From an uncultured Balneola sp. (GTDB lineage: Bacteria > Bacteroidota > Rhodothermia > Balneolales > Balneolaceae), in assembly GCA_913058495.1 (NCBI GenBank), contig CAJXQC010000008.1, positions 62,001 to 126,000 on the forward strand: 64,000 nucleotides of DNA. Direction: 5' to 3'. Shown here one piece after another: positions 1,326-36,428 of the stretch (position 1 is its first letter; the number at the start of each line of letters is the position of its first letter). The notes below the pieces were generated by a model that was given only the letters and a program-made list of their open reading frames with translations, was not told the DNA's origin and made no database searches. The position numbers and the translations under genes are program-made.

Positions 1326-1790
1326 CTAGTTTGACGCTTTGTGATAGTAGACCAAATTGAGATAGTTTTTATTTATTAAATCACAAACTAAAACGGCGTT
1401 ATTACTTCCATTAACTACTACAAAACGTCCGGTATCTATATCTCCGGTAACAATATAAAGTTCGTTTGCAGCAAGAAAATCAGTTATTTCTTTTTGAGAA
1501 TTCAGACTTTTTAAAACTCTCCAGTATTGAAATCCAACACCATTTTCATCAGCACTGAATTCTTTTGTACTAAATTGGAATCCATAGAGAGTGTCTTCAA
1601 TTACTTTTTCATAAAGTAGAACATCTACTCCTTTTATATGTTTAAACCCATTTTTCATAAGTTGGTTGGTAGTAATATCTGAAGCTGAGTCTATCGGTAC
1701 TAGCCATTTTGATTCAATTGAATAATTATTACAAGACAATAAGAAAATAGTGTAAAAAACTAATAGTAAAGCTTTCATTTTAATTGTCAT
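1326..1790 (-). CDS. Hypothetical lipoprotein
   Basis: A 154-residue protein with a lipoprotein signal: hydrophobic residues 5-16 followed by the lipobox LLSC with Cys20, so it should be anchored in a membrane on the periplasmic side. The remainder has no recognised domain. An in-frame ATG at 1778 (residue 5) would also give a complete lipoprotein signal and may be the true start. It is unlinked in function to its neighbours as far as can be seen. Confidence 0.7.
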   Translation of the reverse strand: MTIKMKALLLVFYTIFLLSCNNYSIESKWLVPIDSASDITTNQLMKNGFKHIKGVDVLLYEKVIEDTLYGFQFSTKEFSADENGVGFQYWRVLKSLNSQKEITDFLAANELYIVTGDIDTGRFVVVNGSNNAVLVCDLINKNYLNLVYYHKASN

Positions 1791-1835
1791 TTAGATCTCA
1801 AAAATCTACAAGGGTTAATAGTAACCAAAGCGGAT

Positions 1836-1864
1836 CAGGATTCTTTATTTCGATAGAAATCCTG
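1836..1864 (-). other. Short hairpin downstream of the symporter gene
   Basis: CAGGATT and AATCCTG form a perfect 7-bp stem with a 15-base loop, 20 bases past the stop of the minus-strand symporter. There is no T-run after it, so it is at best a weak terminator or an mRNA 3'-end stabiliser. Confidence 0.3.
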
Positions 1865-1883
1865 TTAATCATGAAAATCATTT

Positions 1884-3380
1884 CTAATCCTGGTCAGCGC
1901 TTGAATTATTTCTGACCAATTTCTTATTAAAGAACTTCACCAGTCCAAAGGCAATTGCCCACTGAACAAGTACTGTAGCAACAGAAAATGCGCTTAGTGG
2001 ATTGTACCAGCTGTCCGGTGCGTACTCGGTTGCACTTAAGAACATCCACCATCCAAGCAGCGTGATAACCTCAACAGGAACGATGTACTTCAAAATGATC
2101 TCCCACCATCTTCCGAGTTGTACTCCTTCAGGATCAGTATTAACCAATTCGCTTCTGAATTTATGTACACCATATTTGATAACAGCATAACTAATAAAAG
2201 CACCGGAAACCATCAGTCCTACTCCCCATACAAAATCCTGATTGGCAAAGAAGCTCAGATTCATTGCGGAAGGTATACCAAATGCAAAACCTGCAACACA
2301 AATCACCATGGTAGCTTTCTTTCTTTTTATTCCTGTGTTCACAAATACTTTAGTTGCCAACTCGATCATAGATATCAAAGAACTGAATGCAGCGAATGTC
2401 AATCCTAAGAAAAACAGAATAGAGAAAATCCCTCCTCCACTCATGGTCGCAAACAATCTTGGCATCCAGATGAAAGTTAAACCGGTTGAAGCCGGTCCTG
2501 AAGTTTTCATTACATCAAGAATTTCTGCATTGGACATCGTTGCACCAAGCGTACCAAACACAGTAGAGAAAATGATTATCGCTGAAACAATAGAAACCAT
2601 ATTATTCCCGATCCCCGTCTGAAAAGCACTGACCGTTACATTATCCTGCTTTCTCATATAGGTAGCATATGTTAGTATCAGTCCCCAAGCTGCTCCTGTA
2701 TCCCAGGCATTTTGGGTTAAAGCTTCCAACCATAAATTAGGATTTTTCAAATCACTCCAATCCGGAGTAAATAGATATGAAATACCGGCTCCGCTTCCCT
2801 CAATGGTTAGGGCTTTTACTAAAGAGATCACCAATACAACCAATAGCGATGGAATCAGGAATTTATTGACCTTTTCTATAGATTTTATTCCTTTCAGAAC
2901 AATATAACCACCCAACAACATCACCGTTGCATGAGTCAGGATCGGCCAGTTAGAAGCCTGAAAGTTATTCCAGATTCCCAGTGCTTGGTCTGCAGTTTCA
3001 GGAAGAGGTGCGAACAAAGCTTGTGATAAATAATACAAACACCATCCTGCTACCACACTGTAATAGAACATAATGGCCGTGGCTACAAAACCAATAAAGC
3101 CACCCATCCATCCTTTTTTTTCACCGATCAGATCCGCAAAAGACTGAACCACACTTTTCCGACTGTGTCTACCGATTCCATATTCTGCTATAATTAAAGG
3201 AATGGACCACATAAATAAGAAAATAGCCCAGGCTATCAGGAAAGCTCCTGCACCATCTTCCCCTCCATTTTGTGCTGCTATTCTAGGGAATCTCCAGATA
3301 TTACCTGTACCAACGGCAATTCCAAGAACACTTAGAATCATGCCTAATTTGGAGGAAAAAACTTGTTTCGGTTCGCTCAT
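1884..3380 (-). CDS. Sodium-dependent transporter, NSS/SNF family
   Basis: A 498-residue polytopic membrane protein of the neurotransmitter:sodium symporter family (LeuT fold), with about 11-12 hydrophobic helices. The N-terminal signature with GTGNIWRFP at about residues 24-32, which lines the sodium and substrate sites, is intact, followed by the NGGEDGAGAF segment. Bacterial members import amino acids with sodium, which fits a marine organism; the substrate here is not predictable. The length is typical. No adjacent gene suggests a pathway. Confidence 0.92.
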   Translation of the reverse strand: MSEPKQVFSSKLGMILSVLGIAVGTGNIWRFPRIAAQNGGEDGAGAFLIAWAIFLFMWSIPLIIAEYGIGRHSRKSVVQSFADLIGEKKGWMGGFIGFVATAIMFYYSVVAGWCLYYLSQALFAPLPETADQALGIWNNFQASNWPILTHATVMLLGGYIVLKGIKSIEKVNKFLIPSLLVVLVISLVKALTIEGSGAGISYLFTPDWSDLKNPNLWLEALTQNAWDTGAAWGLILTYATYMRKQDNVTVSAFQTGIGNNMVSIVSAIIIFSTVFGTLGATMSNAEILDVMKTSGPASTGLTFIWMPRLFATMSGGGIFSILFFLGLTFAAFSSLISMIELATKVFVNTGIKRKKATMVICVAGFAFGIPSAMNLSFFANQDFVWGVGLMVSGAFISYAVIKYGVHKFRSELVNTDPEGVQLGRWWEIILKYIVPVEVITLLGWWMFLSATEYAPDSWYNPLSAFSVATVLVQWAIAFGLVKFFNKKLVRNNSSADQD

Positions 3381-3558
3381 TTTAAAAAATAATGTTAATT
3401 AAAAAAATACATGTTTAAAGTAGCCGTTTCTTCACCTGAAGATTATTATCTTGGTGGTTTCTATATTTTGAATAGAACATGGCTATGCCTATAATTGCAA
3501 GCCAAGCATAACGGTAATAAACGACTATCCAAAAAACAATTTCTTAAGAAAATTTTCG

Positions 3559-6549
3559 ATGTTTTCAGATCATAAAACAACCAATAAGTACCTCGCTTTA
3601 TTCACTTTCTTTACTTCGTTAATCATTTACTGCCTTACACTTGCACCCACTGCCAGTTTTTGGGATGCCGGCGAATTTATTGCTGTTGCGCACGGATTAC
3701 AAGTAAACCATCCTCCCGGAGCTCCTTTTTACTCTATTCTTGGTAGAATTTTCTCCATGTTTATGCCTACAGAATATGTTGCTGTGAGCATTAATTTCAT
3801 CAGTGCCCTAGCATCTGCACTAACTATCATGCTCTTATATCTGATCATTGTTCGTCTGATAAGAGAATGGAAAGGTGATGTTTCAGAATTCAGCCTGATG
3901 GACAAAATCGGAATGTACGGTGGAGCTTTAGTTGGTGCACTTACATTTGCAGTTTCAGATACATTCTGGTTTAACGCTGTAGAAGCTGAAGTTTATGCAC
4001 TGTCTATGTTCTTTACGGCAATTGTAGTCTGGCTTGCCCTAAAATGGTCGGAACGTCATGAGGACCCTTATAACGAAAAATGGCTGGTTTTGATCGCATA
4101 TATGTTTGGATTAGCCATCGGGGTTCACCTCTTGAATTTGTTAGCACTCTTTTTTGTAGCTCTCATTATTTATTTCAAGAAGAAAGATTTCACCTATATG
4201 TCGTTTGGCATAATGGGAATTCTGGCAGTCACCTCCTTTTTTGTGATTTATCCTGCTACTATAAAATGGATACCGGATTGGTCCTCCAAAGTCGGAGGTG
4301 CCACTTATGGCCTGATCAACCCTCTCGTATTCATCTTTTTAATAATGTTTGCGGTAGCCTGGGGTGTTTGGTATACCCATAAAAAGAAATATCGCCTCGC
4401 AAACATAGCGATCATCAGTTACGCTATGATTCTAATGGGTTTCTCTTCCTACTCAGTAATTATGATCCGATCTATTGCTGATCCTCCCATTGATGAGAAC
4501 GATCCTGAAACTGTAGAAGCTTTTGTAAAGTATCTGAACAGAGATCAATATGGTGATACTCCGATTCTGAAAGGAAATAATTATGATGACGCCACCGGAC
4601 AAGTAACCCGTGGCACTGAAAATGAAGAACTTTTTCCGCGTCGCCATTCTCTGGATCCGCGTCATATGGAATACTACAGCAGATATGATAGTGACTGGGA
4701 CTTCTTCTGGGATTATCAGGTCATCCACATGTATGTTAGATATTTTAACTGGAACTTTATAGGCAGAGCTTCAGATATACAGGATACCGGTTGGCAATCC
4801 GGTTTTTCAGCTCCGAAATATCCGAGTAATAAGGCAAGTAATTCCTATTTCTATATTCCTTTCCTGCTTGGACTTTTTGGTCTCATTTATCACTTTTCCA
4901 CGGATAAGAAACGGGCATTTGCCGTCCTTTCTCTATTTGCTGTAACTGGAATCGCTGTAATTTTCTATCTCAATCAACCACCCTATCAACCCAGGGAGAG
5001 AGATTATGCCTACGTCGGTTCCTTTTTTGCATTTTCAATCTGGATCGGAATTGGGGTAACCGGATTGGTTGACCTGATCAAATCCTACATCAAAGAGAAT
5101 TCTATGGCAGCTTATGCAATAATTGGGTTGTGTTTAGTTGCTTCACCTGTTTGGATGGGATATCAAAATTGGGATGATCATGACAGAAGTGATCGTTATA
5201 TAGCTCCTGATTATGCTAAGAATCTTTTGAATTCCTTAGCTCCAAACGCTTTAGTATTTACTAATGGTGATAACGATACCTTCCCTCTTTGGTATGCTCA
5301 AGAAGTGGAAGGCGTCAGAACAGACGTTCGTATTGTTTGCTTGAGTTTATTGAATACAGATTGGTACATCAAACAGCTACGTGATCAATGGTCGCATGAG
5401 TCTGCTCCGCTGCCCATCAATTTGACTGATAAGGAAGTTGAACAAATTACTTCCGGGATTTCACAATGGAGACCACAGAATATTACAATACCAGTGAATA
5501 AAGACATGCTGAGAAGAGCTTTTTCAGAAGACTCTCAGTATAAAGAAGCAATCGGAGTTTCCAGCAGTGAAATTCCTATTCTTCAAACAGGAACTGATTA
5601 CGAGATCCCTGTTGACTCGTTGGATGATGTAGTTAGCTGGAGACTTGCAGGAAGATATTACGGCAAAGATCAGGCAGGAAATGACATCAGATATCTTCAA
5701 ATTCAGGATAGATTAATTCTTGAAATACTTGAAAGCAATAACTGGTTACGACCTGTTTATTTTGCAAATACAGTATCCGGCCAGAGCCAACTTAATCTTC
5801 AGGATTATTTCCGCACAGAAGGTAAAGCATACCGTGTGATCCCTAAGAAAATGGAAGCACAGGTTGGAAATGCATATATAGATGCTGAAATTCATGCCAG
5901 AAGATTTCGTGATTTCAGTCACCGTGAATGGGGAAATCCTGATGTTTATTTTGATGAAAATATTCGTCGTATGATGGGTAATTATCGTTATAATTATCTG
6001 CAACTGGCAGAAAAATACATAATTCAGAATCAGCCGGATAGTGCTCTGTATTGGTTAAAACATGGTGAAGAAGTTATACCACTTCGCGAAGATGAAGAAG
6101 TAAGCACCATTTTAGCTCTTTATGCAAACAGATATGCTCAACTGGGGAATAATGACGATGCCTTACGCTTATTAAATTCTTCTCTGGATGGGTTTATTAA
6201 AAATCTTGATACTGAATTTGACAGATTTCAAAGTATTCAGAATAAACTTGCTGAAATATCTTCTCAATATGAGCAAGCAAGAAGAAATGCCGATATAAAA
6301 GCTCAACGATCACTCACTCAACGAAATAACTCGTTGGTTCAACAGGCGCAAAGTGTCTCTGAAAATATTATGAGGGAACGTCAGGCATTAATAATTGTAC
6401 AATTTGTTTATTTCAAAGCAGGTAACGACGAACAAGGCCTAAAGATAGCCGAAGAAACAAATGCCAAATTTGAGGGCACTCAAATACCTTTAATTCCAAA
6501 AAACCGGGAAGAAAGTATTCAAAGAGGAACTCAATTCGGTTTAAATTAA
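3559..6549 (+). CDS. DUF2723 membrane protein (TMEM260-like glycosyltransferase) with C-terminal TPR region
   Basis: A 996-residue protein. The N-terminal half has many membrane helices and the DUF2723 signature: WDAGEF at residues 36-40 (D37, E39) and NHPPGAP near 50-56. In GT-C glycosyltransferases an acidic residue in the first periplasmic loop is catalytic, and human TMEM260, an O-mannosyltransferase, belongs to this family. The soluble C-terminal part (about 770-996) is helical and TPR-like. The likely role is transfer of a sugar from a lipid carrier to exported proteins; this is inferred from the family. The gene is followed by a strong hairpin at 6564-6596. Confidence 0.85.
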   Translation: MFSDHKTTNKYLALFTFFTSLIIYCLTLAPTASFWDAGEFIAVAHGLQVNHPPGAPFYSILGRIFSMFMPTEYVAVSINFISALASALTIMLLYLIIVRLIREWKGDVSEFSLMDKIGMYGGALVGALTFAVSDTFWFNAVEAEVYALSMFFTAIVVWLALKWSERHEDPYNEKWLVLIAYMFGLAIGVHLLNLLALFFVALIIYFKKKDFTYMSFGIMGILAVTSFFVIYPATIKWIPDWSSKVGGATYGLINPLVFIFLIMFAVAWGVWYTHKKKYRLANIAIISYAMILMGFSSYSVIMIRSIADPPIDENDPETVEAFVKYLNRDQYGDTPILKGNNYDDATGQVTRGTENEELFPRRHSLDPRHMEYYSRYDSDWDFFWDYQVIHMYVRYFNWNFIGRASDIQDTGWQSGFSAPKYPSNKASNSYFYIPFLLGLFGLIYHFSTDKKRAFAVLSLFAVTGIAVIFYLNQPPYQPRERDYAYVGSFFAFSIWIGIGVTGLVDLIKSYIKENSMAAYAIIGLCLVASPVWMGYQNWDDHDRSDRYIAPDYAKNLLNSLAPNALVFTNGDNDTFPLWYAQEVEGVRTDVRIVCLSLLNTDWYIKQLRDQWSHESAPLPINLTDKEVEQITSGISQWRPQNITIPVNKDMLRRAFSEDSQYKEAIGVSSSEIPILQTGTDYEIPVDSLDDVVSWRLAGRYYGKDQAGNDIRYLQIQDRLILEILESNNWLRPVYFANTVSGQSQLNLQDYFRTEGKAYRVIPKKMEAQVGNAYIDAEIHARRFRDFSHREWGNPDVYFDENIRRMMGNYRYNYLQLAEKYIIQNQPDSALYWLKHGEEVIPLREDEEVSTILALYANRYAQLGNNDDALRLLNSSLDGFIKNLDTEFDRFQSIQNKLAEISSQYEQARRNADIKAQRSLTQRNNSLVQQAQSVSENIMRERQALIIVQFVYFKAGNDEQGLKIAEETNAKFEGTQIPLIPKNREESIQRGTQFGLN

Positions 6550-25841: not shown

Positions 25842-25881
25842 TTCTTACTCAATCTATAGTTAAAATTTGGGCATCTGTAAC

Positions 25882-25928
25882 ACCATAACACTTTAACACA
25901 TTTTCGAGTGGTGTTAAAGTGTTATGGT
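25882..25928. repeat. 18-bp perfect inverted repeat
   Basis: ACCATAACACTTTAACAC and its exact complement GTGTTAAAGTGTTATGGT surround an 11-base loop. It lies between the stop of the minus-strand SirB1-like gene's upstream neighbour and its start region, with no T-run on either strand, so it is not a standard terminator. It may be an attenuator, protein-binding site or palindromic repeat. Confidence 0.7.
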
Positions 25929-25951
25929 ACGAAAGATTTTGAACTTCAAAC

Positions 25952-26803
25952 TCATTCATACAACTCAACAGTGGACAAAAGTTTTTTAAGATCTTCTACC
26001 TTTTCAAGTTGTTCTTTGCGCTCATAACTCTGAATTAAATTTCGAATAGTCCTGATCAGAATATCCATATCAGAAGCCATTTGGAAATATTCAGGCTTAG
26101 GAGAAATGTTGTTCTTTTTCAGAAAAAAATAGCATTGATCGTAGCTAACTACTGCTCCGTCATCATATGGATCAACCAGAAACTCTTCTCTTTCTCCTAT
26201 ATAAGTAAGCATAAAATGAATGGGCATATTTACCCCAAAAACGGGCAGATCCAAACGCCGTGCTATGAACATTACTATCATGCTTAAAGTAATTGGCAAA
26301 CCTTTACGACGATCAATAACTGTATCAAGAAAACAATTGGCAGGATTGTGATAGTCTTTTTGATCTCCATTAAAATTCAGGTCTTCAAAAACAAACTTGA
26401 ATAAATGAGACGCTTTTTTTCGTTCATCCAGTTTATATCGAATACTTGGAGCAACCATTTCGGCGAAATGATCCAGTTTTTCTTTATAGTGTTTGGTATC
26501 AATAGTTGGATTCCCAAATCTGGAAAGCATGAAAATGATGGACTCCAGGTCTTTCCGGTTTTTTATACCGACCTCCAATGCATCCACAAAATCAGTTTGT
26601 AAACCCTCAAAAGTCAGAGAGTGTATAAGTTCGTTAACTCTGGTTTTTTCTTCTCCCTGCTTCAGGTCAACCTGATATTGATCAAGCATTGGAACTACAT
26701 TTTCACCAAGTTCCACAAATCGACGGTTCACAGACTCCTGAACAAACGGATCGGGATCATCCATAAGTGTGAGGAGTGATTGTATTTCAGATTTTGAGAT
26801 CAT
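25952..26803 (-). CDS. SirB1/transglutaminase-like family protein
   Basis: A 283-residue cytoplasmic protein. The middle (about 95-240) matches the SirB1 family: NPANCFLDTVIDRRKGLPIT followed by GVNMPIHFMLTY and a VDPYDDG segment, a transglutaminase-like fold. The N-terminal portion is helical, with the pattern of HEAT-like repeats. The function is unknown; related proteins are sometimes linked to protein or tRNA processing. I chose the ATG at 26803 rather than an upstream TTG because it starts exactly at the conserved region. Confidence 0.8.
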   Translation of the reverse strand: MISKSEIQSLLTLMDDPDPFVQESVNRRFVELGENVVPMLDQYQVDLKQGEEKTRVNELIHSLTFEGLQTDFVDALEVGIKNRKDLESIIFMLSRFGNPTIDTKHYKEKLDHFAEMVAPSIRYKLDERKKASHLFKFVFEDLNFNGDQKDYHNPANCFLDTVIDRRKGLPITLSMIVMFIARRLDLPVFGVNMPIHFMLTYIGEREEFLVDPYDDGAVVSYDQCYFFLKKNNISPKPEYFQMASDMDILIRTIRNLIQSYERKEQLEKVEDLKKLLSTVELYE

Positions 26804-30817: not shown

Positions 30818-31243
30818 ATGAAAAAATTATTCATCCTGTTTTTGATAGCCGGTTTTGCCGCATGTGCGGAAACCAAAAAAGAAGATATGTCAACCAAATC
30901 AATGGCTGAAAAAGTAGACTTCTTCTTAGAAAATGATCAGTACACTGATGCACTTACTTTACTTGAAGGTGAAGAAGAGACTGAAGAAGTAATGACATTG
31001 AGAGAAAAAACGCATCTGAACTACGGACTTTTTCTGGAATATCGCGATTCCAACGTAACCAATATGCGCGATAAAATGAATGGAGCTTTAGCTCAGTATG
31101 TTAAAGTACTGAAGATCAATCCGGATAACGAAAAAGCGATCAGTGAGATCGAGCAGATTCTGGGAATTTACGCCACTTTTGATAACCGGAAACCGGATGA
31201 AGAAGTAGCTGAAGATCTCCGCGAACTAGGATTTGAAGTTTAA
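30818..31243 (+). CDS. Hypothetical lipoprotein, TPR-like
   Basis: A 141-residue protein with lipobox FAAC (Cys16), hence membrane-anchored. The rest is helical and acidic, with a TPR-like pattern at about 88-125 (ALAQYVKVLKINPDNEKA). It probably mediates protein contacts on the periplasmic side. It follows the site-2 protease after 5 bases and is likely in the same operon. Confidence 0.75.
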   Translation: MKKLFILFLIAGFAACAETKKEDMSTKSMAEKVDFFLENDQYTDALTLLEGEEETEEVMTLREKTHLNYGLFLEYRDSNVTNMRDKMNGALAQYVKVLKINPDNEKAISEIEQILGIYATFDNRKPDEEVAEDLRELGFEV

Positions 31244-31252
31244 AGAAGAGAA

Positions 31253-31342
31253 GTCATCCTGAGGATACTTCCGAAGGATCTGCACAAAGTATTTTCAGCT
31301 GAAAAGAAGACGTGAAGATTCTTCGCTATCGCTCTGAATGAC
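31253..31342. repeat. Intergenic repeat element with GTCAT...ATGAC ends
   Basis: A roughly 90-bp stretch starting GTCATCCTGAGG and ending CTCTGAATGAC, so the ends are inverted. It contains the perfect 14-bp palindrome TTTTCAGCTGAAAA at 31292-31305. Related 28-base pieces occur at 31829 and 55720. This type of sequence is a common dispersed repeat in Bacteroidota-like genomes, as far as I recall. Confidence 0.55.
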
Positions 31343-31353
31343 AACAAAATAAA

Positions 31354-31824
31354 ATGAGCAACAACAACACCCCTACCATACAAAACCGAAAGGCAAGGCA
31401 CGATTATCAGGTTGAAGAAACCTTCGAGGCCGGCATCGTTCTGAAAGGAACAGAGGTGAAGTCTATTCGTCAGGGGAAAGCTTCGTTTACTGATTCCTTT
31501 GCTTATCTGAAAAACGGGGAAGTGTTTTTAAGAGAGTTGTATATCAAGCCCTATGAGCATGGTTCGTATTATAATCACGATCCGAGAAGAGAACGAAAGC
31601 TGTTGCTCAACAAAAAAGAAATTCGTCAACTAGATAAATTTGTACAGCAAAAAGGGTACACACTCGTTCCGTTAAAGATGTACTTCAAGAGAGGAAATGC
31701 CAAAATTTTGATCGGAGTAGCCAAAGGTAAAAAGAGCTTTGACAAAAGAGACAGCATCAAAGAAAAAGACCTGAAGCGACAACTAGACCGCAACGTGAAG
31801 GGAACGTACAAGGTTAATTTGTAG
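31354..31824 (+). CDS. smpB: SsrA-binding protein SmpB
   Basis: SmpB (156 residues) carries tmRNA to stalled ribosomes for trans-translation. The conserved core GTEVKSIRQGKASFTDSFA at about 33-51 forms part of the OB-fold, and the C-terminal basic tail (DRNVKGTYKVNL) is present. The gene is upstream of no tmRNA here; ssrA was searched for by eye in the neighbouring gaps and not seen. A repeat element sits before its start. Confidence 0.95.
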   Translation: MSNNNTPTIQNRKARHDYQVEETFEAGIVLKGTEVKSIRQGKASFTDSFAYLKNGEVFLRELYIKPYEHGSYYNHDPRRERKLLLNKKEIRQLDKFVQQKGYTLVPLKMYFKRGNAKILIGVAKGKKSFDKRDSIKEKDLKRQLDRNVKGTYKVNL

Positions 31825-31828
31825 CAAC

Positions 31829-31856
31829 GTCATTCTGAACTTGTTTTAGAATCTTA
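31829..31856. repeat. Dispersed repeat fragment (GTCATTCTGAA type)
   Basis: A 28-base sequence beginning GTCATTCTGAA and ending AATCTTA matches 24 of 28 bases of the stretch at 55720-55747 and resembles the left end of the element at 31253-31342. It is probably a truncated copy of the same family. Confidence 0.5.
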
Positions 31857-31895
31857 AGGAATGAGCACTACACTAATTTTAATATCTACTTTCTA

Positions 31896-32837
31896 TTACT
31901 TAATTAAAGTAAATTTCTTTGTAAGTACTCCATCTGCAGTTTTAAGTCTGTAAAAATAAGTTCCGCTTACTAAATTACTTGCATCAAAATTGATTGAATG
32001 GCTTCCTGCTGAAAGTCTATTGTTTTGCAAAACAGCAACTTCTTGACCAATCATATTGAATATGGAGAATTGTACTTGGTCAGGTTTAGATAATTCAAAT
32101 GTAAATGTAGTATTCGGATTAAAGGGATTCGGATAGTTTTGAAATAATTTGGTAGATAGAGGATGATCAGCAGTTTTTTCTTCATTTGAGGTAACTGTAA
32201 CCGAAGCGCTTTGGAAAAATCTATTGATTTCGACAAACCTGAATAAACCTGTGCTATCAAGTCTTTCTACAAGTTCGTCTATTTGAAAGTCATCTACATT
32301 CCAGGTAGCAGAAATAGAAATTAAAGAATCTTTTTCATTTCTATTTCTTATAAATCTCTCAGTTTCAATTGCTGATATACTATCCTTTACTTGTTGGATT
32401 GTGTCGCTTTTCAATGAGTCGTAAGCAACATAAAAACGTCCTGATCTGAACTGAGGAGCAGAAAACTGAACAGAATCTTTAAAACCAAGGTAGTCAAATT
32501 CAATATTTTGTATTCCACCCTTAACTGGGTAAAAAAATTCAGATGGATCAATTTCAATAGTGATGTTTACTTTTTGATGAGGGTAAATATCATAGTAATG
32601 ATAATCTGTTGTACACATATTGGGATGAGTTCCTATGTGTTGGAATTTTAAATAGATTTGGCAAGACGAGCTCCCTTCATAATATAGAGTAGAATCAGAA
32701 CCGTTGTACAGAGTAAAAGAGATATTTATCTGCTCTCCATACTCATAGGTTTCTTTATCTGTAGTAACCATAGTAGTAACCTGTCCATACAAGAGGGAGG
32801 GCGCTAAGGTAAACAATATTAATAGGCTGAATCGCAT
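31896..32837 (-). CDS. BsuPI-domain protein with type IX sorting domain
   Basis: A 313-residue exported protein: signal peptide to about residue 19, a BsuPI-like (intracellular proteinase inhibitor) beta-sandwich at about 20-115, and a C-terminal T9SS type A sorting domain at about 230-313 with NYPNPFNPNTTF and a final KKFTLIK. In T9SS bacteria such a domain directs secretion and surface attachment. The secreted product may inhibit proteases, which is inferred from the domain name only. It is consistent with the PorQ gene at 49084-50073. Confidence 0.87.
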   Translation of the reverse strand: MRFSLLILFTLAPSLLYGQVTTMVTTDKETYEYGEQINISFTLYNGSDSTLYYEGSSSCQIYLKFQHIGTHPNMCTTDYHYYDIYPHQKVNITIEIDPSEFFYPVKGGIQNIEFDYLGFKDSVQFSAPQFRSGRFYVAYDSLKSDTIQQVKDSISAIETERFIRNRNEKDSLISISATWNVDDFQIDELVERLDSTGLFRFVEINRFFQSASVTVTSNEEKTADHPLSTKLFQNYPNPFNPNTTFTFELSKPDQVQFSIFNMIGQEVAVLQNNRLSAGSHSINFDASNLVSGTYFYRLKTADGVLTKKFTLIK

Positions 32838-32870
32838 CAGTTAAGAGTACCGAAATAAGACAAGAAAAAC

Positions 32871-32899
32871 AAAACCCCGCCCTTTCGGACGAGGTTTTC
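32871..32899 (-). terminator. Intrinsic terminator of rnpB
   Basis: On the minus strand AAAACCTCG pairs with CGGGGTTTT (one G-U pair) over a 10-base loop, followed by TGTTTTTCTTG. It starts 7 bases beyond the 3' end of the RNase P RNA. Confidence 0.85.
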
Positions 32900-32905
32900 A
32901 TATTC

Positions 32906-33398
32906 AACAGGAAAGTCTGTAAGCCGGATTTTGTTCCTCCGCTAAAGCGGATTCGGTAATCATTTATCTGGTGCACTCCACCCGATGGCGTCACGACAAG
33001 TGGCGTATACCATCTTATATGAGCTTGCACCCCGCGAGGTTTACCTTGCCTCTTCGGTCACCCTCAGAGCGGTGAGCTCTTACCTCACCTTTTCACCATT
33101 ACCCCCAACGCGGAGCGTTGGAAATTCCAATGTTTAAAACCCAAATTTCAAATAAGCACCAATGTTTTAATATTTAAACATTGTGATTTGTTTGTGTTTT
33201 GAAGCTTGTTATTTGGAATTTCACCAGCGCTCCGCGCTGGTGGCTGTTTGTTTTCTGTTGCACTGTCTGTCTCAGTATCATTCCTGATAAAGAGCCTCTG
33301 CTACGCCCGAAGGATCGCAGAGCGCGGTACTTGTCGGTGTCCGGACTTTCCTCCCAACTATATTGCTATAACTGAGCGATTACCCGACTTTCCTGCTT
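32906..33398 (-). ncRNA. rnpB: RNase P RNA (rnpB), bacterial class A with expanded P12
   Basis: The catalytic RNA that trims the 5' leaders of tRNA precursors. On the minus strand the 5' region has the universal GAGGAAAGTCCGGAC, then CAGTGCAACAGAAAACAAAC, GGTAATGGTGAAA, GGTAAGAGCTCACC and the 3' ATCCGGCTTACAGAC. CAGGAAAGTC at the 5' end pairs with GACTTTCCTG at the 3' end as helix P1. At about 493 bases it is longer than typical bacterial P RNAs (350-400) because the P12 region carries a palindromic insert (33105-33242). Ends are estimated from P1. Confidence 0.93.
33105..33242 (-). repeat. REPIN-like insert within P12 of rnpB
   Basis: Two end hairpins point towards each other: CCAACGC/GCGTTGG (33105-33121) and CACCAGCGC/GCGCTGGTG (33222-33242), with the shared core CGCGGAGCG in inverted orientation. 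Just inside them GAAATTCCAA (33121-33130) pairs with TTGGAATTTC (33213-33222), and CAATGTTT (33160-33167) pairs with AAACATTG (33176-33183). The insert is A+T-rich and repeat-like, unlike the rest of the RNA. Confidence 0.7.
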
Positions 33399-33452
33399 AA
33401 AGGTAAGATTTTTTTAGATGAGCTGATATCTTAAATAGATTGGTAATTAAAT

Positions 33453-33498
33453 CTCCCTTTGAAGGGAGGTGAACATCCAAACGGTTCTTTGGATGTTC
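33453..33498. repeat. Two tandem hairpins upstream of rnpB
   Basis: CTCCCTT/AAGGGAG (33453-33468) and the perfect 11-bp GAACATCCAAA/TTTGGATGTTC (33471-33498) lie between the thiN stop and the 5' end of rnpB. Neither has a following T-run. They may be part of a dispersed repeat or a processing/terminator structure for the thiN transcript. Confidence 0.5.
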
Positions 33499-33530
33499 CG
33501 AGGGATGTCTGAATCTTTGCTAATATTTAA

Positions 33531-34160
33531 TCACTTTATTTTACTCCCACCCCCAATAAACACCGCTAATTTTCCGGAAGAAAACTCAAGTGTAACCGGA
33601 GAAGCAGTAACGGTATTAGAAGTAGCATCCTGAACGCCGGGTTCTAAACGTACATTATTCAGGGGATAAAGTACCCCGGAAGAGATGAAATTCTCTACAA
33701 AGCCTGATATAGGAAAAAAAGAAATGGGTGTATCTATCGGAATATCCCTTTCAAAAGGAGAATCAGCTAAAAAAGTTTTCCCGTAATCGTCTTCAAAAAC
33801 CAAAGATTCAAACCGATCATGAAATTCCACCAAGGAAGAAAGATTCTTTTGCTGATGATCGATGCGTTTTCCCAAAGCTCCCAGAACAGTACAGCTTGTC
33901 GCGCCTTTTTTAAGGGCATAATTCAATGCTTTATCCAGATCGGTGCTGTTTTGGTCGTCGAGTTTTAATACTTCAATATTTTCATGATTGGTGTATTTGA
34001 AACTATCCAGATCTCCGAGAACGATATCCGGAGTAAAACCATATCCGAGAAACACATGTCCGCCACTGTCTGCGCCAATTTGGAGATCGGCTTTTTCGAT
34101 GTGGTTTTCCAGTAAAGCTTTAGTTGGAGGTGTGCCTCCGCAAATAATAAGTGCGTGCAT
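33531..34160 (-). CDS. thiN: Thiamine diphosphokinase
   Basis: A 209-residue enzyme transferring pyrophosphate from ATP to thiamine. The start IICGGTPP, GADSGGHVF, GDLDSF and DQNSTDLDKAL blocks, which bind the nucleotide and magnesium, are all present, followed by the ALGKRIDHQ segment and the C-terminal thiamine-binding beta domain. I chose the ATG at 34160, which begins at the conserved core; a longer frame would add 27 unrelated residues and run close to the divergent nrnA start. It probably rescues thiamine to the active cofactor. Confidence 0.9.
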   Translation of the reverse strand: MHALIICGGTPPTKALLENHIEKADLQIGADSGGHVFLGYGFTPDIVLGDLDSFKYTNHENIEVLKLDDQNSTDLDKALNYALKKGATSCTVLGALGKRIDHQQKNLSSLVEFHDRFESLVFEDDYGKTFLADSPFERDIPIDTPISFFPISGFVENFISSGVLYPLNNVRLEPGVQDATSNTVTASPVTLEFSSGKLAVFIGGGSKIK

Positions 34161-34253
34161 ATATTTTTGATGTAAAACTCGAAAAAAATCACCCCAAAAA
34201 GAAATGGAATTCTGGCTATATACATCTATTTTGGCGTTCAAAAAGAAAATTAT

Positions 34254-35225
34254 ATGTTTGAAAAGCTAATTCCGGAATTGTTATCTCATAAAAAGATCGG
34301 AGTTTTTTCACATGTGCGTCCCGATGGAGATTGTTTGGGCTCACAAGTAGCACTTTGTCTGTGGTTGCAAAAAAATGGCGTTGATACATCTGCATTTAAT
34401 GAAGATGAAGTAAATAAAAATCTCGAATGGCTTACCGAATTTAAAAAGATCGAAAAACCCGATTTCTCTGGTCTGAAAGAATTTGATGCCTTTGTTTTTG
34501 TAGATGGGAATGCGCTACATCGTTTTGGAGATACTGCAGAAAAGATCACCGAACTAGGAAAGCCTCTCTATATGATCGACCATCATCCGCAACCGGATGA
34601 AGTTTTTAAAGAGTTTGTGTCAAAAACAGACGCTTCGTCTACCTGTGAATTGGTTTATAATTTGTTTGCAGAGCATGATATTGGACAAATTAATGAACAA
34701 TCAGCTAAAGCCATGTATGTTGGAATTGTAACTGATACGGGATCTTTTCAGTTTGACAGCGTGAAACCCGGCACTATGAAAGCGGCTGCCACTTTATTGG
34801 AATACGGAAATTTTACTCCTGATGAAGTTGTACAAAAAGTATATTCTTCAAAACCAATGAAGCAGATCAAGTTACTGGGTTTGGCGCTGGAGACCATTTC
34901 TTTGCATGAGAACCAACAAATTGCGACTATGTACGTTACAAAAGCGATGTTTCAGAAAACGGCTACTTCCAATGAAGACACGGAAGGATTTGTAGCTTAT
35001 CCGCTAAGTATAGAAGGAGTAAAAGCATGCATTTTCTTACGTGAAGACGAAGATAGAATTAAATTAAGTCTGCGTTCTCAAAGCGACATTGATGTGAATG
35101 AATGGGCAAGAGAACTCAATGGCGGAGGCCATAAAAAAGCAGCAGGAGCCTGGTATAAAGGCAATATGGAAGAAGCAATCGAAGACGTCATCAGTATTGG
35201 AAGAAAACAATGGATTAACGATTAG
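34254..35225 (+). CDS. nrnA: Oligoribonuclease/pAp phosphatase, DHH family (NrnA)
   Basis: A 323-residue DHH/DHHA1 phosphoesterase that degrades nano-RNAs and dephosphorylates 3'-phosphoadenosine 5'-phosphate. Motifs in order: HVRPDGDCLGS (about 20-30), VDGNALHRFGD, the DHH motif in IDHHPQP, GIVTDTGSF, and the C-terminal GGGHKKAAGAW of DHHA1. The length is normal. It is followed after 3 bases by the HtrA-like gene in the same direction. Confidence 0.93.
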   Translation: MFEKLIPELLSHKKIGVFSHVRPDGDCLGSQVALCLWLQKNGVDTSAFNEDEVNKNLEWLTEFKKIEKPDFSGLKEFDAFVFVDGNALHRFGDTAEKITELGKPLYMIDHHPQPDEVFKEFVSKTDASSTCELVYNLFAEHDIGQINEQSAKAMYVGIVTDTGSFQFDSVKPGTMKAAATLLEYGNFTPDEVVQKVYSSKPMKQIKLLGLALETISLHENQQIATMYVTKAMFQKTATSNEDTEGFVAYPLSIEGVKACIFLREDEDRIKLSLRSQSDIDVNEWARELNGGGHKKAAGAWYKGNMEEAIEDVISIGRKQWIND

Positions 35226-35228
35226 GGA

Positions 35229-36428
35229 ATGAAGAGAACAGTTACTACCGTAAGTTTACTGGTTTTAATTTTTTGGACAGCTTGTTTTAAAAAAGAAAAG
35301 CCGGAAGTTATACCGACTATTTCTCCTTTAGAATACGAGTCATCACCGGCAAGTTTTGAGCCGGAGGAAGAAAAGGAAGAAGTAAAGACAAAGCAGGTCT
35401 CTATTTCTGAGAGCAGAAGTAATGCTATTACCAAAGCAGTTGAAAAAGCCAGTCCTGCAATTGTGAGTATTACAGTAACAGAAGTTGAAAGAGGATATAA
35501 TCGTGTGATGGATCCATTTTTCTCCCGTTTTTTTCAAATGCCCTCAGAACGGGAAGTTAAAAGTATTGGCTCAGGATTTATTATCAGAGAAGACGGTTTG
35601 ATCGTTACCAATGAACATGTAGCAAGTAAAAGCGCCAAGAAGATCATGGTGGCACTATCAAGCGGAGATACTTATGAGGCTGAATTGCTTGGATCAGATG
35701 AATTAGCAGATCTGGCTTTATTGAAAATAAAAGAACCGAAAGGAAAAATGCCTTTTGTGAAATTCAGCAACTCCGAAACAGCGATGGTTGGAGAGTGGGC
35801 TATAGCGATGGGAAATCCATTTGGTTTATTTGATGATGGACAAGCTTCAGTAACGGTTGGAGTGATAAGTGCTACAAAAAGAGATTTTCGTCCCGATCCT
35901 AAAGACCCGCGTGTATATATTGATATGATCCAAACAGATGCGGCTATTAACAGAGGAAATTCAGGCGGACCGTTGGTAAATAGTGATGGAGAAGTAATTG
36001 GTGTGAATACTTTTATTTTCACAGGCGGAACCAGTAATGGATTTGTAGGGCTTGGGTTTGCGATTCCTGCGAACAGAGTAAAGAAGATCATCAAACAGCT
36101 GGAGGAATCAGGTGAAGTAGCTCTGGATTTTGATCCGGGGATGGAATTCACTAGAATGACAACTCAGATCGTTTATCAATATGGAGTTCCGTCTATTCAT
36201 GGACTTTTTGTAACCAGTGTAAACAAAAATGGTCCGGCTTATGAGTGTGGTATTATGCCCGGAGATATCATTACAAAAATCGGAGATGAAAGAGTGAGTA
36301 GTGAAATGCATGCCTGGGCTTTGATGCGGGAATTTGAAGAAGGTGAAAAAATGTCGATAACTTTAGCTAGAGGGCAGAATCAATATGAAGCGGTTATGAC
36401 ACTACGAAAAAGAGTGAAAGGGAAATGA
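35229..36428 (+). CDS. HtrA/DegP-like serine protease lipoprotein with one PDZ domain
   Basis: A 399-residue S1C protease. It has a lipobox-like WTAC (Cys19), suggesting an envelope anchor. The triad is H130 (TNEHVAS), D161 (LADLALL) and S245 (RGNSGGP), and a single PDZ domain occupies about 300-395 (GDIITKIGDERV). Such proteases remove misfolded envelope proteins under stress. The start codon follows the nrnA stop directly and the next gene overlaps by 4 bases, so all three are in one operon. Confidence 0.92.
   Translation: MKRTVTTVSLLVLIFWTACFKKEKPEVIPTISPLEYESSPASFEPEEEKEEVKTKQVSISESRSNAITKAVEKASPAIVSITVTEVERGYNRVMDPFFSRFFQMPSEREVKSIGSGFIIREDGLIVTNEHVASKSAKKIMVALSSGDTYEAELLGSDELADLALLKIKEPKGKMPFVKFSNSETAMVGEWAIAMGNPFGLFDDGQASVTVGVISATKRDFRPDPKDPRVYIDMIQTDAAINRGNSGGPLVNSDGEVIGVNTFIFTGGTSNGFVGLGFAIPANRVKKIIKQLEESGEVALDFDPGMEFTRMTTQIVYQYGVPSIHGLFVTSVNKNGPAYECGIMPGDIITKIGDERVSSEMHAWALMREFEEGEKMSITLARGQNQYEAVMTLRKRVKGK

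Follow-up and report, generated by a model that had tools for sequence, protein, structure and literature searches.

In the rnpB gene (class A RNase P RNA) of a Balneola-like member of Balneolaceae, helix P12 was found to carry a palindromic insert at its tip. This insert is probably an element of the intervening-sequence (IVS) kind which has no ORF and ends in hairpins; it would either stay in the RNA as a helix extension or be cleaved by RNase III to give a two-piece RNA that functions. The position, architecture, recurrence and patchy distribution of the insert were established by comparison of sequences from the 64,000-nt stretch of DNA analysed here (the window), from relatives and from unrelated bacteria.

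Position and architecture of the rnpB insert

The rnpB gene was located at 32904-33395 on the minus strand of the window and matched Rfam family RF00010 end to end (model 1-367, 218.9 bits) with an intact ribozyme core (219 bits). It was the sole rnpB match returned by the Rfam search of this genome, which is 99% complete, so that the insert-bearing RNase P RNA most likely works. The RF00010 alignment showed an insertion of approximately 120 nt in the P12 loop, as the original prediction had placed it; the extent given there (33105-33242) was slightly small, and the Rfam alignment, folding and relatives put the whole insert together with the apical P12 pairs at about 33102-33243 on the minus strand.

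The palindromic insert of approximately 135 nt lay between the landmarks ACAGAAAACAAAC and GGTGAAAAGG and was made up of two GC hairpins, with one core in inverted orientation, around complementary AT-rich arms. On the RNA strand, the 5' end hairpin was CCAGCGC-GGA-GCGCTGG (33224-33240, minus strand) and the 3' end hairpin was CCAACGC-TCC-GCGTTGG (33105-33121, minus strand), both delimited by sequence, perfect local pairing and covariation. The plus-strand letters were CCAACGCGGAGCGTTGG at 33105-33121 and CCAGCGCTCCGCGCTGG at 33224-33240. CGCGGAGCG had exactly two occurrences in the window, inverted relative to each other, compared to an expected 0.05, which bore out the prediction of two hairpins sharing an inverted core. 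The interior arms (33122-33223, minus strand) were mutually complementary, had no ORF and carried 7-nt periodic words of the CAAATNN type, as determined by lag-7 self-identity and folds. No ORF of at least 80 aa was present inside the insert and no S23/IVP ORF was seen inside rnpB. In addition, the Rfam search of 31000-36000 produced no group I or group II intron match in the insert, RF00010 being the only match.

Directly upstream of rnpB, at 33452-33512, TCTCCCTTTGAAGGGAG was followed by a palindromic GGATGTTC stretch. This stretch resembled intergenic sequence at two other loci (L017 and L124) and looks like a dispersed repeat.

Folding and distribution of the insert in Balneolaceae

The P12 stretch folded into one long interrupted helix (z = -5.35) and none of the 200 shuffles was as stable; the predicted arms AAATTCCAA/TTGGAATTT were both present in the insert. 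Each end hairpin was locally perfect, the long-range pairing had one G.U pair, at one of its ends, and an internal C.A mismatch, and both kinds of pairing were possible for the insert ends. Across the 12 homologues the long helix had 37 consensus pairs with 94.7% of cells paired, and compensatory changes were observed in 10 of the 37 pairs compared to 3.4 in shuffles and 2-3 with slid partners. The local end hairpins covaried too (5 of 14 pairs). This covariation is support, rather than proof, that the structure is kept at the RNA level, since many of the double changes came from G017 alone. The lag-7 self-identity of the interior arms was 0.49 in the 12 Balneolaceae homologues compared to 0.33 in shuffles, and 0.55 compared to 0.37 for the elements found outside the family; the excess was above 9 shuffle standard deviations in both groups, whose homologous rows are non-independent.

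The long self-complementary ends of the insert would stack on P12 and continue its helix, and by this pairing P12 would tolerate the insert while the ribozyme folds normally. We infer that the helix, of roughly 25 bp, is either retained as an extension or processed by RNase III; a cut would leave the RNase P RNA nicked, in two pieces and still functional, as happens with 23S rRNA IVS.

An rnpB was detected in 88 family genomes, of which 12 carried the insert, always in P12 and in four genera (five of the eight genomes of the same genus, four in g4, one in g6 and two in g11). Presence was read from the sequence where this was fetched and from the span length otherwise. The other three congeners had a P12 of 10-14 bp. 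Short P12 helices were also found in the other family rnpBs, and several g19 genomes had a P12 of approximately 70 nt with unrelated sequence. The insert required six changes on a tree made from the rnpB core with P12 left out, at least five of them by well-supported branches, and the number of gain and loss events is approximate because the tree was built from approximately 340 columns of one RNA. A single clade of insert carriers was rejected on this tree (AU p = 1e-4, lnL difference of 134). Judging from these sequences, the insert was gained and/or lost repeatedly, and the tree does not separate gain from loss. An ordinary P12 variant shared by all relatives, which the original prediction had named as the alternative, does not agree with congeners that lack the insert and carriers that do not form one clade.

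The sister species G032 and G017 had cores 92% identical and inserts 61% identical with differing hairpins, so that the insert of one of them was probably replaced or newly inserted at the same place. Single-hairpin remnants were present in G010 (CCAGCGCTCCGCGTTGG) and G020 (CAGCGCTCCGCGTTGG); these fit a deletion between the two end hairpins, and an ancestral empty site is a possible alternative. Overall, the P12 stretch is regarded as an insertion because of what the relatives showed: the same place in all 12, a short P12 in congeners, rejection of one origin and the unlike inserts of G032 and G017.

Elements of the same architecture in other bacteria

When the genomes of 84,980 species were scanned for exact matches to GCNNAGCRYTRGAAATTCCAA, 22 stretches were obtained. 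The shared architecture consisted of a GC hairpin, GAAATTCCAA, arms with 7-nt periodicity and a mirrored hairpin; one hairpin and GAAATTCCAA were imposed by the search pattern, and the mirrored arm and hairpin were not part of the query. Eight of the 22 stretches were from Balneolaceae, seven in rnpB and one between protein genes. A related copy of the element lay between protein genes in G032, which indicates that the element is not confined to RNA genes. Of the 14 stretches outside Balneolaceae, five were inside 23S rRNA (L159, L161 and L167) or rnpB (L170 and L175), and all five carried the mirrored arm and hairpin. By informal judgement five of 14 is far from chance, since 23S rRNA and rnpB make up a very small fraction of a genome, while the other nine, outside the RNA genes identified, are probably chance matches.

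The element of L159 and L167 was in a 23S rRNA hairpin near the 3' end (Rfam model position ~2820), which we read as helix H98, and that of L161 (Wolfebacteria) was in 23S rRNA at model position ~687. The L161 stretch matched as 23S rRNA (1734-4112) had two tRNA genes predicted inside it, at 3193-3264 and 3375-3450. The L175 rnpB, which scored below the Rfam gathering score, had elements at two places, P9 and the P16/P17 region. A search of the five genomes with the end motif showed nine occurrences, all in 23S or rnpB, compared to none for the reversed-pattern control. The ninth site (L217) had no Rfam match and was assigned to rnpB by eye from landmarks and its similarity to L175. It had one element in P9 and two in other helices plus a further long insertion near P3, and the two in other helices, of 117 and 118 nt and at two sites of this one gene, were 90.7% identical. 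We assigned the helix names in L170, L175 and L217 ourselves, based on how Rfam aligned L170 and L175. In total, elements were present in P9/P17 of three non-Balneolaceae rnpB genes and in the 23S genes of three other genomes. The five host genomes outside Balneolaceae were 1.1-1.4 Mb, and the hosts other than Wolfebacteria are presumably CPR as well. Part of the cross-phylum resemblance could be convergence, since the arms are AT-rich. Among the nine probable chance matches, a Desulfobacteraceae contig (L166) showed part of a similar mirrored arm around 1014-1034, with no Rfam match.

That unrelated bacteria have the architecture in 23S rRNA and in further rnpB helices points to the IVS kind and, given that the insert has the same design as inserts in ribosomal and RNase P RNA genes elsewhere, an rRNA-type insertion seems to invade RNase P RNA. 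It is unlikely that P12 simply lengthened through local duplication and the growth of an inverted repeat, maintained by its structure and involving no mobile element. Such a lengthening would agree with the single copy per genome, the compensatory changes in 10 of the 37 helix pairs, the ~70-nt P12s of another sequence in g19 and the wide variation of P12 length in bacteria, but it is opposed by the recurrence of these end hairpins and arms in P9/P17 of unrelated rnpB as well as in 23S rRNA, by the two near-identical elements in the L217 gene and by the unlike inserts of sister species. Still less likely is an ancient domesticated extension with a function in protein binding, stability or regulation, passed down within Balneolaceae with many losses. 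In its favour, the inserts were in general more alike where the cores were (Spearman 0.67, calculated over 66 non-independent pairs) and the helix covaried, but roughly half the species placed in this region of the tree, including the three congeners, lacked the insert, and G017 and G032 disagreed with vertical descent.

Beyond the IVS-kind insert of P12, it is tentatively proposed that a family of hairpin-ended elements with 7-nt word arms and no ORF may spread across unrelated phyla as specialists for peripheral helices of structural RNA genes (23S rRNA and P9, P12 and P17 of RNase P RNA), leaving some RNase P RNAs multiply interrupted and possibly processed into pieces. If confirmed, IVS-type inserts would not be peculiar to rRNA and would have repeatedly invaded several helices of another essential ribozyme. 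The interrupted genes would then serve as natural experiments to learn which helices of RNase P RNA can be interrupted, and fragmented RNase P RNA could be tested directly in vivo. They would also give one reason for RNase P RNA being missed in some genomes, as with L175 (below the gathering score) and L217 (unmatched).

Genomic dispersal and comparison with known systems

The original prediction had described a mobile, REPIN-like palindromic repeat that entered an essential ribozyme gene. The insert does look mobile and tolerated as an extended helix, but its membership in REPINs was not sustained, as the core was confined to a single locus. A genome search found the hairpin core nowhere else in the same genome; no hairpin copies of the P12 element were present elsewhere in it and the weak matches were AT-rich word arrays. 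The hairpin with GAAATTC was found once per genome, in rnpB only, in 8 of the 59 genomes searched (this genome and seven insert-bearing relatives). The genome had seven Y1_Tnp matches, and at the four of these seven loci that were inspected the rnpB hairpin was absent, the flanks having other hairpins or none. A REPIN/RAYT-type origin, in which a Y1 tyrosine transposase of the genome would act in trans to move two inverted REP hairpins, is therefore very improbable despite the Y1_Tnp matches and a likeness to REPIN in the two locally perfect inverted hairpins, because the rnpB insert is not dispersed and no matching hairpin lies at the inspected transposase genes. Other CGCGGAGCG occurrences in the genome were unrelated.

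Arrays of the 7-nt words were dispersed in relatives, with 10 matches in the same genome compared to none for the reversed control and 124 compared to one in G034; in some other genomes the control matches were as many or more. The genome had 11 genes of PF05635, the 23S rRNA IVS protein family, all outside the rnpB insert. For flanks of PF05635 genes, the best lag was 7 in 15 of 24 loci compared to 4 of 24 farther out, with words that differed from those of the insert. Many PF05635 genes among L084-L113 were flanked on either side by 7-nt words that form imperfect inverted repeats, the words differing by locus. A link between the 7-nt arms of the insert and the PF05635 flanks is suggestive, not proven, and the common 7-nt period of the insert and the S23/IVP flanks hints at one mobile system behind IVS. 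Elsewhere in the window, an inverted repeat with CCCAAGCTCCTGCTTGGGA was present at 1124-1364, with similar stretches in L002 and L129, and a long imperfect inverted repeat whose 42-nt arms contain word-like AACACCATAACAC was present at 25858-25952.

No earlier description of IVS-like elements in rnpB was found in the literature covered, which was incomplete and included few subscription journals. The STRR of cyanobacteria are tandem heptanucleotide repeats in P12 of rnpB. The Balneola insert is like them a repeat sequence inside this helix with a 7-nt period, but it is a hairpin-ended inverted element whereas STRR are tandem. IVS, which RNase III removes with no ligation afterwards, are known in the 23S rRNA of bacteria such as Coxiella, Salmonella and Leptospira. 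Like these, the rnpB insert lies within an essential structural RNA, at the tip of a helix (P12 of the only rnpB), has terminal inverted repeats forming a long stem and is sporadically distributed, and the same kind of element was found in 23S rRNA (L159, L161 and L167). Within the genus, no 23S insert was found among the recovered full-length 23S genes (2878-2881 nt, that of the genome itself not among them). Unlike 23S rRNA IVS, the insert is hosted by RNase P RNA, lacks the S23/IVP four-helix-bundle protein that IVS optionally encode, and has arms of 7-nt words and end hairpins whose local pairing is perfect. The 23S rRNA IVS of Coxiella has terminal inverted repeats and is excised by RNase III (PMC4990558). 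For CPR, diverged RNase P RNAs have been reported whose helices are extended, and, in the passages considered, these extensions differ from the Balneola insert in not being described as inserted elements (PMC8172020). The rRNA genes of CPR are rich in inserts, of which more than half are group-I-intron-like and some encode 23S_rRNA_IVP, the encoded proteins being mostly homing endonucleases; like the Balneola insert, these inserts are placed at the tops of stems (PMC11270868).
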